Part shown: positions 18,938 to 26,674 of the stretch, one piece after another
Position numbering within the stretch: the stretch's first letter is position 1
Layout of the letters: each line of letters opens with the position of its first letter
NCBI RefSeq assembly: GCF_008274215.1
Contig: NZ_VTPS01000001.1
Span: forward strand, 1 to 64,000
DNA: 64,000 bases
Direction of reading: 5' to 3'
Source: Calorimonas adulescens
GTDB taxonomy: Bacteria; Bacillota; Thermoanaerobacteria; Thermoanaerobacterales; UBA4877
The notes under the pieces: model-generated
The model's input: the letters and a program-made list of their open reading frames with translations, nothing else
What the model was told of the DNA's origin: nothing
Databases searched by the model: none
Program-made: the position numbers and the translations under genes

Positions 18938-19549
18938 TTATTCCTCACTGTCAAGACCTTCTCCAACTTCATATCTGGTAAATCTTCTTATTATAATATT
19001 TTCACCCAGCTTGGCTATTTTCTCTTTAAGAAAATCCTCTATAGTAATATCTGGATTTCTAATATAACTTTGCTCCATAAGGCAATTCTCTTTATAATAT
19101 TTTTCTAACCGGCCTTCAATTATTTTATCAGCAATATTAGCAGGCTTACCTTCATTCATAACTTGAGCTCTAATGATTTCCCTTTCTCTTTGAATCACGC
19201 TTTCTGGAATATCCTCTCTTCTTACATATTGTGGATTAGCAGCAGCAATCTGCATTGCAAGTTCATGAACAAAATTTCTAAATTCACTATTCCTTGCAAC
19301 AAAATCTGTTTCACAATTCACCTCAATTAAGACACCAATTCTTCCTTCACCATGTATGTAAGATTCTACAATACCCTCAGAAGCAGTCCGCCCTGACTTT
19401 TTGGATGCTGCAGCTAGTCCTCGCTCCCTCAGTAAAACTATTGCTTCCTCGATGTTTCCATTCGCATCTTGCAATGCTTTTTTACAATCCATTATCCCTG
19501 AACCTGTTCTTTCACGAAGTTCTTTTACCATATCCGGTGTAATAGTCAT
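18938..19549 (-). CDS. tsf: elongation factor Ts, short form
   Basis: EF-Ts recharges EF-Tu by nucleotide exchange. The N-terminal UBA-like domain includes VKELRERTGSGIMDCKKAL, then the core IEVNCETDFVARN (about 75-87). At 203 residues it is the short form, lacking part of the longer core found in E. coli (283 residues); short forms occur in several thermophilic and clostridial lineages. ATG behind AGGAGG. Confidence 0.97.
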   Translation of the reverse strand: MTITPDMVKELRERTGSGIMDCKKALQDANGNIEEAIVLLRERGLAAASKKSGRTASEGIVESYIHGEGRIGVLIEVNCETDFVARNSEFRNFVHELAMQIAAANPQYVRREDIPESVIQREREIIRAQVMNEGKPANIADKIIEGRLEKYYKENCLMEQSYIRNPDITIEDFLKEKIAKLGENIIIRRFTRYEVGEGLDSEE

Positions 19550-19613: not shown

Positions 19614-20318
19614 TTATTCGGCCACTTCCATTTGAACACCCTGTTTTCCTTCAAGTACAGCATCGGCAATTTTTGATGCAATTAGTTTGACAGCTCTTAT
19701 TGCATCATCATTACCTGGTATAGGATAATCTATTTCATCAGGATCACAATTAGTATCAACGATACCTACTATAGGTATTCCTAAACTGCGTGCCTCTTTT
19801 ACTGCTATTTTTTCTTTTCTGGAATCCACAACAAAGATAGCACTTGGTAACCTATCCATTTCTTTTATGCCACCAAGATATTTTTGCAATTTTTCTTTCT
19901 CTTTAAGAAGTTTTGTTACTTCTTTTTTTGGTAATAGCTGAAAATGCCCTTCTTTTTCCATCTTTTCAAGTTCTACCAACCTGGAAACTCTTGACCTGAT
20001 TGTTTTAAAATTAGTTAGCATCCCGCCCAACCAACGCTCATTAACGTAGAACATATTACACCTTTCAGCCTCTTCTTTGATGGATTCTTGAGCTTGCTTT
20101 TTTGTGCCCACAAATAGTACTGTACCGTTATTGGCTGAAACATCTCTTACAAAAGCATACGCCTCTTCAATTTTTTTCACGGTCTTTTGTAAATCAATTA
20201 TATATATACCGTTACGCTCGGTATATATATATTCTCCCATTTTAGGGTTCCATCTCCTCGTTTGATGGCCAAAATGGACGCCTGCTTCAAGCAACTGTTT
20301 CATTGAAATAACTGACAT
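19614..20318 (-). CDS. rpsB: 30S ribosomal protein S2
   Basis: S2 is needed for S1 assembly on the 30S subunit. The start [19 protein letters not shown] and the [12 protein letters not shown] segment are family hallmarks; the domain with the [20 protein letters not shown] stretch follows. Length 234. AGGAGG at 20325-20330. A strong promoter (20427-20455) and a structured leader precede it. Confidence 0.98.
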
Positions 20319-20420
20319 TTATATCCTCCTCTTTTTGGTTTTAGCCTCCGGCTTTTCATCGCTTCATAAAACCAGTATTGGCAACCTTTGAAGCTTAAAG
20401 CCGTGTGTAATAATTTTACC
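20319..20420 (-). ncRNA. rpsB 5' leader with candidate pseudoknot operator
   Basis: The leader of about 100 bases between promoter and rpsB can form three perfect helices. P1 pairs CGGCTTT (20397-20403) with AAAGCCG (20349-20355). P2 inside it pairs GCTTCA (20389-20394) with TGAAGC (20361-20366). P3 pairs TGGTTTTA in the P2 loop (20367-20374) with TAAAACCA (20336-20343), giving a pseudoknot. P3 ends five bases before AGGAGG. E. coli rpsB is repressed through its leader by S2; a similar role here is inferred. I know of no certain Firmicutes match. Confidence 0.55.
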
Positions 20421-20426
20421 TCATCT

Positions 20427-20455
20427 AATATATCATAAAGATTAAAAGTTATCAA
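20427..20455 (-). promoter_or_regulatory. strong sigma-A type promoter for rpsB-tsf
   Basis: Minus strand -35 TTGATA (20450-20455), exact 17-base spacer, -10 TATATT (20427-20432). The predicted start is near 20420. It separates the flagellar operon from the rpsB operon. Confidence 0.8.
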
Positions 20456-20839: not shown

Positions 20840-22222
20840 TTAGATTGGCAAAAAAACAATTTGTCTGTCTTTTTCTCTTAAAATTACATGACGATATTCC
20901 TGATGTATGTACACTGTGCTATCTCCTATGGTAACCTTAACACCAGGATACAAAATATTGTTAATTTTAATGCTTGCCCTCTCGGATATCTCCATTTCGC
21001 TTGACAATTTCTGAAAAGTTTCATTTAGCTCAATAAGCTGTTGCTCAATATTTTTTTTGGTCGCCAACGATTTTTCATACAATAATTTTCTATGATCATC
21101 AATTTTATTAAGTTCTGTCTGTCGAAAATAATTTATTATTTTATTAAGTTTCACTAGTTCTCCAGTTAAATGCTCAATTTGATTTTTTATGTTTATCAAT
21201 GTAGTCTTTTTTTCAGGGTCAACACCTATTTCAATCTCTGTTGATGTGTACATAGGCGAGCCTATACTATTGGCTATAATCTCATTTTTGACTTTGACCG
21301 TACTGTTTATTATGACTCCACGTTTACCTTTCATATATATACCACCTTTACAGGTAACTTTACTGTAAAGTATAGCCTCGCAGTATATTGACCCACCAAC
21401 CTCTATATTAGAATTTTCTATATATTTCGTTGTTAAATCACCAGTACACCTGACAAAACCTTTGCCTTCACCCTGTATACCATTTTTTACAATTATATTT
21501 CCATCACTTATTAAAGTAGAAGAATCCATAATGCCATCTATAATTATATCTCCCTTAGCTTTTACAGTAAATCCCATATTTGCATTTCCTCGGATGTGGA
21601 CAGAACCAATAAAATCTATATTACCTATAGAATAATCGACATCTCCTTTAACTTCAAATACAGGATATACATTTATTTTACCATTAACTAAAACTGGTTG
21701 GCCATCGATATCAGCAACTATTTTATTATCAATTAAAACTACATTTTTACCTAAAGGAGGGTTTACCTTACGTCCATTTTTTGCTTTAATTTCTTTTCCC
21801 AACACATTTATGCCATCAACTCCTGGCTTGGGATCAATTAAAACGGCGAGCACTTCACCTTTTTTTACATTATAGACTGCACCAAGATCTTGATAATTTA
21901 CATGACCATTTGGTAAGACCTTTGGTATATAAGAATCATGTTGGATAAAATACTGAATTTTGCCATCTTCTCCATTAATCGGTTCCTTACCTTTTGCTAT
22001 CTCTATATCTTCATCAAATAGAGGATGTTTTATCACCTCATCAATAATGTTTTCCTTTAAACCATAAACTATCCCTGATTGTTTAATAAGTTCTTCAACC
22101 AGGCTGGCTTCTAAGGGTCTGCCACTATCATTGATATGAAGCCGTAAATGAGCTTTCATTTTATTGATATCAAATTTTATAGAAGCATTAACTAACGGAT
22201 TAAAATTATCATTTTCAGGCAT
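20840..22222 (-). CDS. FapA (DUF342) family protein
   Basis: The 460-residue protein has an N-terminal domain, then a glycine-rich, short-period region (about 165-330) typical of the right-handed beta-helix of DUF342/FapA, then a coiled coil (about 345-420) and a small beta domain. Family members occur at the end of Firmicutes fla/che operons and, as FapA, influence cell-surface or signalling processes; the exact function is unknown. The ATG follows GGGTGATC, 10 bases after the sigma factor gene. Confidence 0.85.
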   Translation of the reverse strand: MPENDNFNPLVNASIKFDINKMKAHLRLHINDSGRPLEASLVEELIKQSGIVYGLKENIIDEVIKHPLFDEDIEIAKGKEPINGEDGKIQYFIQHDSYIPKVLPNGHVNYQDLGAVYNVKKGEVLAVLIDPKPGVDGINVLGKEIKAKNGRKVNPPLGKNVVLIDNKIVADIDGQPVLVNGKINVYPVFEVKGDVDYSIGNIDFIGSVHIRGNANMGFTVKAKGDIIIDGIMDSSTLISDGNIIVKNGIQGEGKGFVRCTGDLTTKYIENSNIEVGGSIYCEAILYSKVTCKGGIYMKGKRGVIINSTVKVKNEIIANSIGSPMYTSTEIEIGVDPEKKTTLINIKNQIEHLTGELVKLNKIINYFRQTELNKIDDHRKLLYEKSLATKKNIEQQLIELNETFQKLSSEMEISERASIKINNILYPGVKVTIGDSTVYIHQEYRHVILREKDRQIVFLPI

Positions 22223-22232
22223 AAGATCACCC

Positions 22233-22964
22233 TTAGATTGTATAATAGTTTTGTAACATCTGCCTTAATTTGGCCAGTGCTCTAGAATGTATTTGAGAAA
22301 CTCTCGACTCCGAAACATCCAAAACATGTGATATTTCTTTCAAACTCAATTCTTCATAATAGTATAAAGTGATTATTAATTTTTCTCTCTCATTTAAATT
22401 ATCAATTGATTCTTTGATTATTCTTTTTTCGTCTTTTATCAATGTTTCTCTTTCAGGCAAGTCGTCTACAGAAATTACTGCAGTTAAATTGTTTTCTAAT
22501 ATATCGTCCAACGATGATATATTAGATGCCACTATCTGAGTCTGTAGTTTATAATAATCTTCTTTAGATATATTCAGTTTATTACAAAGTGCATCTATAT
22601 CCTCGCCACTTATATCTGTAAAATCCGTTATTTTTGATATATCCTTAATTTTTTTTCTCAAATTACGTGGCATCCAATCTTTACTCCGCAAATAATCTAA
22701 TATCTCTCCTCTTATCCTGATACTTGCATATGTCTCAAATTTTACACTCTTATCTGGGTTGTAGTTAAGATATGCATTTATTAACCCCATAATACCTTGT
22801 TCTACCAAATCGTCATACTCATTCCTAGGAATTCCAGATACTATTAACTTGTTTACGATCTTTTTTACAAGTGGTATAAAACTTATTATAAATTCTTCAT
22901 CAATTATATTTGATAAGTCCTCATTATTATAATTAGAAACATTTTTTTGCACATTTGCTGCCAC
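22233..22964 (-). CDS. sigD: flagellar sigma factor (sigma-D / FliA type)
   Basis: The 243 residues show sigma region 2 (DDLVEQGIMGLINAYLNYNP, then FETYASIRIRGEILDYLRS, about 45-98), a region 3 and region 4 with LNEREKLIITLYYYEELSLK and the HTH around VSESRVSQIHSRAL (about 220-233). FliA/WhiG-type factors transcribe late flagellar and chemotaxis genes. GTG start behind GGGGTGA. In its usual Firmicutes place after cheD. No anti-sigma flgM is in the window. Confidence 0.95.
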   Translation of the reverse strand: MAANVQKNVSNYNNEDLSNIIDEEFIISFIPLVKKIVNKLIVSGIPRNEYDDLVEQGIMGLINAYLNYNPDKSVKFETYASIRIRGEILDYLRSKDWMPRNLRKKIKDISKITDFTDISGEDIDALCNKLNISKEDYYKLQTQIVASNISSLDDILENNLTAVISVDDLPERETLIKDEKRIIKESIDNLNEREKLIITLYYYEELSLKEISHVLDVSESRVSQIHSRALAKLRQMLQNYYTI

Positions 22965-22966
22965 AT

Positions 22967-23119
22967 TTATTCACCCCTCATTAATAAATTTCTTTTATAA
23001 TGAAGGATGGGAAAAAAAGTAATTGTCTTCATATATATTATAGACTTAAGTGTTGACCCATTTATATAGGACTCAAGACCCATATAAAGTAATTCTCTCA
23101 TATTTCTTGAATTAACCAT
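22967..23119 (-). CDS. possible small protein between cheD and the sigma factor
   Basis: An open frame fills the gap exactly: it ends MRGE-stop two bases before the sigma-factor start, and its last codons contain that gene's GGGGTGA ribosome site. From the ATG at 23119 it encodes 50 residues (MVNSRNMRELLYMGLES...), rather hydrophobic in the second half. A GTG at 23128 is also possible. No good ribosome site and no recognised domain, so it may be chance. Confidence 0.3.
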   Translation of the reverse strand: MVNSRNMRELLYMGLESYINGSTLKSIIYMKTITFFPILHYKRNLLMRGE

Positions 23120-23135
23120 AGCTATCACTATCCCA

Positions 23136-23624
23136 TTATATTGATTTTTCTCCAAAACCAATTGTCTTCACATTTAAAGTTCCATGCTCTATGTCAAACT
23201 CAATAGTACGACCATAATTACCACCCACATCTTCAGATATAATCGGTATATTAAGTTCGTTTAGTATGCATTTAACTGCATCAACATTCCGTCTGCCTAT
23301 TTTTAGCACATCGTTATTGCTTTTCAATGTAAACATCTGCGCTCCCCCGGCAATCTTGGAAAGTAATTTATTTTTTTGGGCACCAATCTTAATCAAATTG
23401 TTATAAAGTGCATAGATTCCTGTATCCGCAAATTTATAAATATTCTGTCCAGCCATATTTTCTTTACTCTTCGGAAGCATAATGTGAACCATTCCGGCAA
23501 ACTCATGATTCATATCGTATATAATTACACCCACGCATGAACCCAGCCCTACAGTAACTAATTTATCCGGTGGATATGCAATCTTCATATCTGCCATCCC
23601 AACCCTGACAAGCTTACTTTCCAT
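23136..23624 (-). CDS. cheD: chemoreceptor glutamine deamidase CheD
   Basis: CheD deamidates glutamines in chemoreceptors and stimulates CheC. Seen are GLGSCVGVIIYD with the catalytic Cys, AGMVHIMLPKS with the His, and KIAGGAQMF. The ATG at 23624 is preferred: GGAG lies nine bases upstream, whereas the upstream TTG (23639) has no spacing. Length 162. It overlaps the end of cheC. Confidence 0.96.
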   Translation of the reverse strand: MESKLVRVGMADMKIAYPPDKLVTVGLGSCVGVIIYDMNHEFAGMVHIMLPKSKENMAGQNIYKFADTGIYALYNNLIKIGAQKNKLLSKIAGGAQMFTLKSNNDVLKIGRRNVDAVKCILNELNIPIISEDVGGNYGRTIEFDIEHGTLNVKTIGFGEKSI

Positions 23625-24240
23625 TAATTTCAACTCCAAATGCTTTTAGTAATTTATTCAATGAATCTATTTGCGGGATCAAAAAGAAATATCCATCGAC
23701 ATTGTTTTCGCCTTCTATGAAACTCGTTTGAATAAAAAGTACTTTATCACTGACCTCTCCAAAGGATACTGCTGGCACACTCAGGAGAGCACCAGCCATA
23801 TCTATTGATATAGCCGGGGGTGAAATAAGGAGCTTAATGTTAATCAGCGTAGACAGGGCTGTTATGTATGATCCGGCAAGAATATTACCAATTTCCGAGA
23901 GAGCAGAAAGTTCTATTTCATTTAAATGATAGATACCATTATAAGGTCTATTCATCAACATATCTACAAGATAGCAGGCGGAATTCATAGGAAATATAAA
24001 AAGAATGTTGCCATCTAATCCTTCTATAATGTCAAAGTATACGCCACACACCTCTGTTTCTGCAGAACCAAGTATGTCAGTAACCTCATTTAACTCTAAA
24101 ATTCTTACCTGTGGCACATTCATGTTTATTCTTTTACCTACGATTTTGGCAAGAGATGTTATGGCATTGCCAGATCCAATGTTGCTCACTTCTTTAAGAA
24201 TATCAAGAACCATCTCGTTTATCTTATCTATATCCATCAA
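23614..24240 (-). CDS. cheC: CheY-P phosphatase CheC
   Basis: CheC dephosphorylates CheY-P and binds CheD. The 208 residues contain two phosphatase motifs of the E-x3-N type: EVSNIGSGNAITSLA (from about residue 17) and EIGNILAGSYITAL (about 115). The start is either TTG 24240 or the adjacent ATG 24237 behind AGAGGTG. It belongs to the same family as the N-terminal part of FliY. Confidence 0.96.
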   Translation of the reverse strand: MMDIDKINEMVLDILKEVSNIGSGNAITSLAKIVGKRINMNVPQVRILELNEVTDILGSAETEVCGVYFDIIEGLDGNILFIFPMNSACYLVDMLMNRPYNGIYHLNEIELSALSEIGNILAGSYITALSTLINIKLLISPPAISIDMAGALLSVPAVSFGEVSDKVLFIQTSFIEGENNVDGYFFLIPQIDSLNKLLKAFGVEINGK

Positions 24241-24255
24241 GTAATGGCACCTCTC

Positions 24256-24678
24256 TTATTGAATCGAGAACATTTTTTCCAGATCCAATATTATTATCAA
24301 TCTTCCATCTATATTTGCAACGCCTTTGATATAAGGATTATTGTTATCAAAGAATTTTTGAGAGATATCTATGTTGGCAATAGATATCCGCTCCACCTCA
24401 TAAGCTCTATCTGCAATTAATCCCATAGAGAATTCTCCAATTTCAGTAATTATAATTCTTGTTGAGCTATCAATATCTTTCGGTAAAAAATTCAATAGTC
24501 TTCTTGTTTCAGCTATAGGGATAATTTCACCTCTTAAATTAATTACTCCTTTTATATAATCCGGTGCTTTGGGAACACGTGTAATTTTACTCGGACGTTC
24601 AATTGTCTTGACGTTCCTAATATCAATTCCAAATTCCTGATCATTTAATGAAAAAATAACATATTCACTTGTGTCCAT
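24256..24678 (-). CDS. cheW: chemotaxis coupling protein CheW
   Basis: CheW links chemoreceptors to the CheA kinase. The 140 residues are a single CheW domain: FSLNDQEFGIDI, KGVINLRGEIIPIAETR (about 43-59) and IKGVANIDGRLIIILDLEK. The ATG follows AGGAGG and the gene is 13 bases after cheA. Confidence 0.97.
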   Translation of the reverse strand: MDTSEYVIFSLNDQEFGIDIRNVKTIERPSKITRVPKAPDYIKGVINLRGEIIPIAETRRLLNFLPKDIDSSTRIIITEIGEFSMGLIADRAYEVERISIANIDISQKFFDNNNPYIKGVANIDGRLIIILDLEKMFSIQ

Positions 24679-24691
24679 TATTCCAAACCTC

Positions 24692-26674
24692 CTAATTGAT
24701 TAAAAAGTTTGTATCAATTATAAGCGCCACATCTCCATCTCCAAGTATTGTGGCCCCTGCTATGCTCTTTATGCCAGATAGGTATTTTCCGAGGGATTTG
24801 ATTACTATTTCCTGTTGACCTATTAAAGAATCAACCAATATGCCACTGTATTTTTCTCCTCTTTTTGTAATAACTACAGTTAATTCTTTTTGAGGAAGAG
24901 AATATTCAGGAACACCCAAAAGCTCTCCAAGCCTGATTAATTGCACTACCTCTCCGCGGAATATCATTACCTCTTTGTTTTGAATAAATTTTATATCATT
25001 TCTTTCAATAGTGACAATTTCTTTGATTGAATTTAATGGTATTGCATAAATTTCATTTTTTAAATTAACAAGAAGTGCCTGTATTATTGCCAACGTAAGA
25101 GGCAATTTTATGCTAAAAATTGTACCTTTCCCACTATTAGAAATTACATCAACAAACCCACCTAAGGATTCTATCTTGTTTTTTACAACATCAAGTCCTA
25201 CACCTCTGCCAGATATATCAGTAACCTTTTCTGATGTTGAAAATCCAGGCATAAAAAGATAGTTGATCATTTCGTTATCTGTTAGGTTATCAGCATCACT
25301 ACTGGAAATCAGCCCCTTTTCAATAGCCTTCTTCTTAATATTCTGGAAATTAATTCCCTCGCCATCATCTTCTACTTCAATAACTACATTATTGCCGTCA
25401 TGAAACGCCCTCAAATACACAGTACCTTTTGATGGTTTACCTTTTTTTATTCTTACCTCTGGCGCTTCAATTCCATGATCAATAGCATTCCTAATCAAAT
25501 GAACCAAAGGTTCACTTATTTCATCAATTACAGTTCTATCAACCTCAGTATCCTCTCCTGAAAGCTTTAACTCTATTTCCTTATTAAGTTCTTTTGACAA
25601 ATCCCTCACCATACGTGGAAATCTATTAAAGACTCGTTCTATCGGTACCATACGTACTTTCATTACAGCATCATTTAAATTTGTGGTTATTCTATCGAGA
25701 TACTCAATGGTTGTATTTAACTCTGTATCTTGAATGGATGTTTGTATCTTTAAAAGCCGTGTTTTTATTATTATCAATTCACTAACCAAATTCATGAGTT
25801 TGTCAAGTCTATCTGTATCAACCCTAATTGTACGCGATGCAACTATTTTTTTTGACTTATTTCCATCTTCTACATCTTCCTTTACAGTATTTAAATTATC
25901 CTGTAAATTCGGAATAGCATTTATACTTTCTTGATTTATTTCTTCCACGATGCATTTTTCTATCTCGGCTATAGAATTTATTTTTTCTAAGATATCTTCT
26001 TTAGATGCTTTCGAGATTAAAAAAACCGTAAATTGGTTTTCGAATTTTTCATCTTCAATATCCTCTACCGACGGAATAGACTTAAATATATCACCAATTT
26101 TTTCCAATATATTGAATACAACATAAGCTCTGGCTGATTTTAGCACACAATCTTTACTAATAAAAACTTCAATGTGGTAACACTTAAAACCACCATTAAA
26201 GGCCTTTTTCATTATGTCTCTATCATATTCATTAAAAACTTCAGTATTAACTGATTCAGTCAAAACTTCTCTGTTTTCTTTCAGAGTGTTATAGACACTC
26301 AAATATTTTTCAAGGGTGTCAAATAACGATGAGATGTCAGCATCACCCTCGCTACCTGAGATTTCAATATTATTTAAAAGAAGTGCTAGTACATCTGAAC
26401 ACTTCAGAAGCACATCAATCAAATCGGGGCTAACCTTTAATTTGTCAGCTCTAACCTCAGAAAGCACGTCCTCCATTTTATGAGTCAAATCACCCATTTT
26501 TGTAAACCCCATTGTTGCTGCCATACCTTTCAAGGTATGGGCTGCCCTAAAGATATTATCTATTAATTCTCTATCTGTAGGATTTTTCTCTATTTCTAAC
26601 AGTAGTGTATTCAGATCCTCAATATGTTCCTTGCTTTCCTCAACAAAAATTTCTAAATATTGATTTAAATCCAT
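24692..26674 (-). CDS. cheA: chemotaxis histidine kinase CheA
   Basis: CheA autophosphorylates and passes phosphate to CheY and CheB. The 660 residues comprise an HPt domain with phospho-His46 in AAHTLKGMAA, a response-regulator binding region (about 160-245), dimerisation (about 280-345), the ATPase (HLIRNAIDHGIE N-box, DDGEGI and GRGVGLDVVK G-boxes) and a C-terminal CheW-like domain. The ATG follows AAGGGGG, two bases after cheB. Confidence 0.97.
   Translation of the reverse strand: MDLNQYLEIFVEESKEHIEDLNTLLLEIEKNPTDRELIDNIFRAAHTLKGMAATMGFTKMGDLTHKMEDVLSEVRADKLKVSPDLIDVLLKCSDVLALLLNNIEISGSEGDADISSLFDTLEKYLSVYNTLKENREVLTESVNTEVFNEYDRDIMKKAFNGGFKCYHIEVFISKDCVLKSARAYVVFNILEKIGDIFKSIPSVEDIEDEKFENQFTVFLISKASKEDILEKINSIAEIEKCIVEEINQESINAIPNLQDNLNTVKEDVEDGNKSKKIVASRTIRVDTDRLDKLMNLVSELIIIKTRLLKIQTSIQDTELNTTIEYLDRITTNLNDAVMKVRMVPIERVFNRFPRMVRDLSKELNKEIELKLSGEDTEVDRTVIDEISEPLVHLIRNAIDHGIEAPEVRIKKGKPSKGTVYLRAFHDGNNVVIEVEDDGEGINFQNIKKKAIEKGLISSSDADNLTDNEMINYLFMPGFSTSEKVTDISGRGVGLDVVKNKIESLGGFVDVISNSGKGTIFSIKLPLTLAIIQALLVNLKNEIYAIPLNSIKEIVTIERNDIKFIQNKEVMIFRGEVVQLIRLGELLGVPEYSLPQKELTVVITKRGEKYSGILVDSLIGQQEIVIKSLGKYLSGIKSIAGATILGDGDVALIIDTNFLIN

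Follow-up and report, generated by a model that had tools for sequence, protein, structure and literature searches.

The window, by which we mean the whole stretch of 64,000 nucleotides of Calorimonas adulescens DNA that was analyzed, carries on its minus strand, at 19614-20318, the gene rpsB, which encodes ribosomal protein S2 (234 amino acids) and has its start codon at 20318. The next gene in the operon, at 18938-19549 on the same strand, is tsf (elongation factor Ts), and 3' of it come pyrH, frr, uppS, cdsA, and dxr. Directly upstream of rpsB, the minus strand at 20840-26674 holds what by eye looks like a chemotaxis/flagellar cluster (CheA, CheW, CheC, a CheD-like protein, and a sigma factor). 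The 5' untranslated region of rpsB is occupied by a leader, at 20319-20409 on the minus strand, that is matched with 59.1 bits by a covariance model built from 40 Bacillota leaders (R1) and, at 20320-20409, with 53.6 bits by a second model (R2) from which the order of the window was left out. This is the place that the known class of rpsB leaders requires.

A promoter-like sequence, TTGATA-17-TATATT, is located at 20427-20455 on the minus strand and predicts a transcription start at about 20420. The promoter with a 17-bp spacing that the first-pass annotation had reported is present, and it agrees with the consensus at 10 of 12 positions, but judged from the sequence by itself this candidate site is not rarer than chance, given that 2.3 such sites were expected and 1 was found. 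Its placement is typical of the family, because promoter-like -10 boxes mostly end 15-24 nucleotides 5' of the conserved CACA, and the distance in the window is 19 nucleotides. In addition, GGTG(T) was enriched 10-11 nucleotides before CACA among leaders L001-L190 (55 of 159 versus 6 in shuffles), and these are probably the first transcribed bases of the rpsB mRNA. We also considered whether GGUGU, close to the transcription start, forms a 5' hairpin with ACACA, and rejected this: the mean stem (3.96) was hardly better than that of shuffled sequences (3.61), so that GGTG has the look of an initiation sequence and not of one arm of a helix. Between the promoter and the start codon no terminator-like hairpin was found, the sole candidate (20293-20279) being within rpsB itself. 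This speaks against control by transcription termination in the leader instead of at translation, an alternative that draws on the fact that L10 leaders differ in mechanism between Escherichia coli and Bacillus subtilis (PMC4647458) and that we regard as very improbable here.

Read 5' to 3' on the minus strand, the leader begins with a single-stranded ACACA (20404-20408) just before the first helix, which is near-invariant in our alignment (A1) and also occurs in the E. coli leader described by the Rfam model t44. The first helix, P1, is formed by CGGCUUU (20403-20397) and AAAGCCG (20355-20349), and the second, P2, by GCUUCA (20394-20389) and UGAAGC (20366-20361); for both, the coordinates of the first-pass annotation were correct, on the minus strand, and covariation is strong. 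All 7 pairs of P1 show two-sided changes, with 96% of the cells paired, and the same is true of 9 of 9 consensus pairs of P2, with 91% of the cells paired. Within the P2 loop, GGUU (20386-20383) precedes a small hairpin of GCCA (20382-20379) and UGGU (20374-20371), in which GCC and GGU are paired in 99% of the cells. The 3' arms of P2 and P1 are separated by GAUGA (20360-20356; AGAUGA in the A1 consensus), and at the foot of P1 lies GGAGG (20349-20345), a second, upstream sequence resembling a Shine-Dalgarno, whose GAGG is invariant in A1 and whose counterpart in the E. coli t44 leader is GUGGAGGC. It is followed by AACC (20340-20337) and, six bases further on, by the rpsB Shine-Dalgarno AGGAGG (20330-20325), which in turn ends six bases before the start codon.

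The conservation of this arrangement was analyzed in 190 leaders extracted from related genomes, in which rpsB was found in 119 of 121, and from 80 named genomes. Nearly all of them follow a common plan, CACACG-P1-GAUn-P2-NNGUGCC...GGU-P2'-AGAUGA-P1'-GAGGA-A-rich-ACN-Shine-Dalgarno. In 100 leaders, 94.3% of the cells of P1, P2, and the hairpin were paired, compared with 60.1% after shuffling and at most 51.5% in slid controls, and two-sided changes were observed at 19 of 19 pairs. An inner stem and a terminal hairpin thus sit on top of P1, as in the known leader class. A structure-free alignment still gave 91.2% of the cells paired, and RNAalifold, applied to a sequence-only alignment of 40 diverse leaders, showed double changes at all 16 pairs of P1 and P2. 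Because this covariation extends across the leaders and is also present in the sequence-only alignment, P1 and P2 are real and conserved. The folding energy of the window leader is unremarkable (z = -0.52), and minimum-energy folding is uninformative as evidence. We also observed that the rpsB leaders of a sister family of the same class (f4: L140, L141, L145, L155, L161, and L172) were missed by the Bacillota model; in them UUCGGU...ACCGAA is invariant and could pair as a pseudoknot of 6 bp, and the P1/P2 region is changed.

The pseudoknot is where the comparison departs from the earlier annotation, which had proposed a third helix, P3, of 8 bp between UGGUUUUA (20374-20367) and UAAAACCA (20343-20336) and had suggested an alignment of rpsB leaders in search of covariation in all three helices. 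P1 and P2 covaried across about 100 rpsB leaders; among 146 leaders P3 did not covary, whereas the pairing of GGUU with AACC did. For this analysis GUGC and the first AAC 3' of GGAGG served as anchors, both chosen blind to pairing, with X1 defined as the base before GU in NGUGCC and Y1 as the base after AAC. X1 and Y1 were Watson-Crick partners in 117 of 146 leaders versus 74 expected (90 GC, 17 UA, 9 AU, and 1 CG), and on a tree of 97 S2 proteins one Watson-Crick pair was directly replaced by a different one 11 times. In about 20% of the parsed leaders the two bases are not Watson-Crick partners, some perhaps owing to wrong anchoring. Covariation was absent when the second GGU (Z1) was paired with the same ACC, at 79 of 146 leaders against 75 expected, whereas the pairing of the hairpin GCC (C1) with this second GGU was found in 133 of 146, with 87 expected.

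The 8-bp match is present as described, its pairing is perfect, and mononucleotide shuffles of the loop produce such a match with the tail in only about 0.6% of cases; at least 6 pairs are also possible at its position in 15 of about 146 leaders. On these grounds it might be considered the pseudoknot of this particular species, or a state that alternates with the conserved fold. Nevertheless, bases 20374-20371 of its 5' arm, which P3 takes together with 20370-20367, make up the 3' arm of the conserved GCC...GGU hairpin. P3 is not the conserved pseudoknot, and it is neither conserved nor covarying: the sister genome L002, whose S2 is 91% identical, has no 8-bp P3 and retains GGUU/AACC only. We therefore consider a role for the 8-bp helix, in either form, quite unlikely. 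The covariation identifies GGUU 20386-20383 with AACC 20340-20337 as the predicted conserved pseudoknot of the window, and by the same comparison the 8-bp match is best described as a species-level coincidence or a putative local alternative.

The first-pass annotation had left open whether an equivalent Rfam entry exists. Two entries do, RF00127 (t44) and RF01815, and neither reaches its cut-off here, although such a cut-off is set by curation and is no property of the RNA itself. An Rfam scan of the whole window gave nothing above cut-off and no t44 match, RF01815 having as its best result a weak, full-length match of 17.1 bits against a cut-off of 40, and no RF01815 match above cut-off was obtained in 121 relatives. 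These results, together with a loop layout that in the Proteobacterial leaders is partly different, are what can be said for the proposal made earlier, i.e. that an operator binding S2 (or S1) arose independently in Clostridia. That proposal is already contradicted, however, and has very little left in its favor, because E. coli (RF00127) and Alphaproteobacteria (RF01815) carry the same element upstream of rpsB, and the models of each side find the leaders of the other at the same gene. The Bacillota model R1 detects the E. coli leader (L191) with 27.9 bits and a rough E-value of 1e-4, and R2 does so with 23.9 bits and an equally rough E-value of 0.001; the leader of E. coli K-12 is itself a t44 member with 83.5 bits. 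In the opposite direction, t44 matches with E <= 0.01 (1e-6 to 7e-4) were obtained in 9 of 31 Bacillota genomes, and each of the nine lies immediately 5' of rpsB; t44 matches at this place in Bacillota genomes other than that of the window reach 29-44 bits, below cut-off; one leader from the order of the window (G018) scores 43.6 bits with RF00127, the cut-off of which is 44.

In agreement with this cross-detection, four sequence blocks are shared, and they surround the same helices in an unchanged order. The blocks of the class, CACACG, GGUGCC, GGAGG, and AACC, are all present in the window, with one extra U (GGUUGCC), and the pseudoknot of the class, in which the junction on the 5' side of the terminal hairpin pairs with the 3' extension beyond P1, is found as GGU/ACC covariation. 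The Bacillota leader resembles t44 in its gene, its place, and its order of elements (ACACACG, P1, P2, the GGUGCC hairpin, GGAGG, and AACC) and differs from it in scoring below the Rfam cut-off; aligned to R1, the E. coli leader lacks two bases of AGAUGA and has a correspondingly shorter 3'-side segment between the two helices P2 and P1. RF01815 likewise precedes rpsB and has a pseudoknot joining the junction before the terminal stem to the extension after P1, but in this form, that of Alphaproteobacteria, a further stem (its P2) is present. Moreover, an rpsB motif with a pseudoknot had been described in Proteobacteria, Cyanobacteria, and some Firmicutes, and the Firmicutes motif was already listed there with three pseudoknot pairs (Meyer 2009, PMC2704228), which also goes against an independent origin in Clostridia. 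From the cross-detection, the shared blocks, and that earlier description, we conclude that the element belongs to a known class and has a common ancestry with the S2 operator of E. coli. Homology across the phyla, in turn, is indicated by covariance-model scores, the calibration of which is rough, by the shared order, and by the gene context. The rpsF leader, which binds S6:S18, is also a ribosomal leader kept across phyla (PMC4647458), but it concerns another gene, another protein, and another fold, and it is a parallel only.

In an even sample of 299 genomes from the phylum, R1 found the leader in 268, as a single copy. In the genome of C. adulescens the window leader was the only R1 match with E <= 0.01, and the next two matches (20.5 and 15.2 bits) cover short stretches and seem to be due to chance. 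RF00127 gave no match above cut-off in sets of 41 and 31 Bacillota genomes. There is, consequently, an annotation gap: neither Rfam model passes in the Bacillota tested, and the Bacillota model finds the leader in about 90% of the 299 genomes. RF00127 and RF01815 describe the same rpsB leader class, but both are typed as sRNA genes and they are not joined in a clan. A separate RF01815 match of 28 bits was seen in one genome (G093) at C28:8651-8784, away from the rpsB of that genome, which is on C1. Phage records with an S2 protein were also considered and left out; rpsB occurs in a few of them, and these look like bacterial sequence.

Excess S2 in E. coli represses rpsB-tsf via the leader, a repression that needs bS1 (PMC10931766). 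In-cell probing in enterobacteria has further indicated that the leader and the S2 site on 16S rRNA share architecture (PMC10931766); our own comparison of nine leaders with the rRNA locus of a relative was made by sequence, is blind to architecture, and gave nothing above shuffles. We consider, with a probability of about 0.88 for the explanation as a whole, that the window carries the known rpsB (S2) leader in its Bacillota form and that this leader acts by S2-bound repression of translation. The parts of this explanation differ in strength. Our comparison shows a conserved fold that precedes rpsB and is related by descent to the E. coli operator. By analogy with E. coli, S2 is most likely the ligand and translation most likely the step that is repressed in Bacillota. 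These results support part of the earlier description, namely a structured pseudoknot leader of rpsB, here seen to be conserved, that most likely binds S2 and is transcribed from a promoter upstream of P1.

The rpsB-tsf mRNA would start about 15 nucleotides before P1; P1 would stack on P2, with the GCC/GGU hairpin sitting in the P2 loop, and the GGUU before this hairpin would pair with the AACC after P1, so that a compact fold would lie six bases away from the Shine-Dalgarno. When S2 is in excess over 30S subunits, it would bind the leader and stabilize the pseudoknot, and the bound fold would keep 30S subunits off the adjoining ribosome-binding site, lowering translation of rpsB and hence of tsf. 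With six bases between the end of the pseudoknot strand and AGGAGG, such a block is plausible. That 30S subunits are sterically excluded at the Shine-Dalgarno is nonetheless a guess from this geometry, since the ribosome-binding site of E. coli lies outside the operator and a review calls the mechanistic details unclear (PMC10931766).

The partner protein raises a further question. A search with PF00575 of the C. adulescens genome, which is 98.7% complete, returned five matches, each to a single domain and each in an open frame of its own, and no multi-domain bS1 was among them; judged by size and context, they resemble PNPase, RNase R, NusA, and an RNase G-type protein, the remaining one being a single-domain protein of 146 amino acids. 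The bS1 co-repressor known in E. coli may thus be absent here, and because its role is known for E. coli only, it is not certain to be a defining trait of the class. The missing multi-domain bS1, together with a GGAGG beside P1 that hardly varies across Bacillota and recurs in E. coli, could also be taken to mean that the ligand is not S2 alone, and that S2 acts with a substitute for bS1, that EF-Ts binds, or that the 30S subunit uses GGAGG as a standby site. We think this unlikely, given that the E. coli member is under S2 control (PMC10931766) and that the element travels with rpsB and not with other genes. Coming back to S2 as the ligand, we tentatively entertain the possibility, with rather more doubt than confidence, that the leader is an ancient operator, found in almost all Bacillota and also in Proteobacteria, on which S2 alone works in lineages without a canonical bS1, the bS1 requirement of E. 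coli being a later addition. To this reading Cyanobacteria and Thermotogota would probably be added by the weak t44 matches seen, among 14 control genomes, in Synechococcus and Thermotoga.

What is new in these results is the corrected register of the pseudoknot, the failure of both Rfam models to reach their cut-offs in the Bacillota genomes tested, and a genome that has the leader and in which no multi-domain bS1 was seen. The question of whether the leader represents a new class is closed, for it belongs to a known one. With the corrected register and a Bacillota model in hand, autoregulation by S2 becomes directly testable in Gram-positive laboratory bacteria such as B. subtilis.
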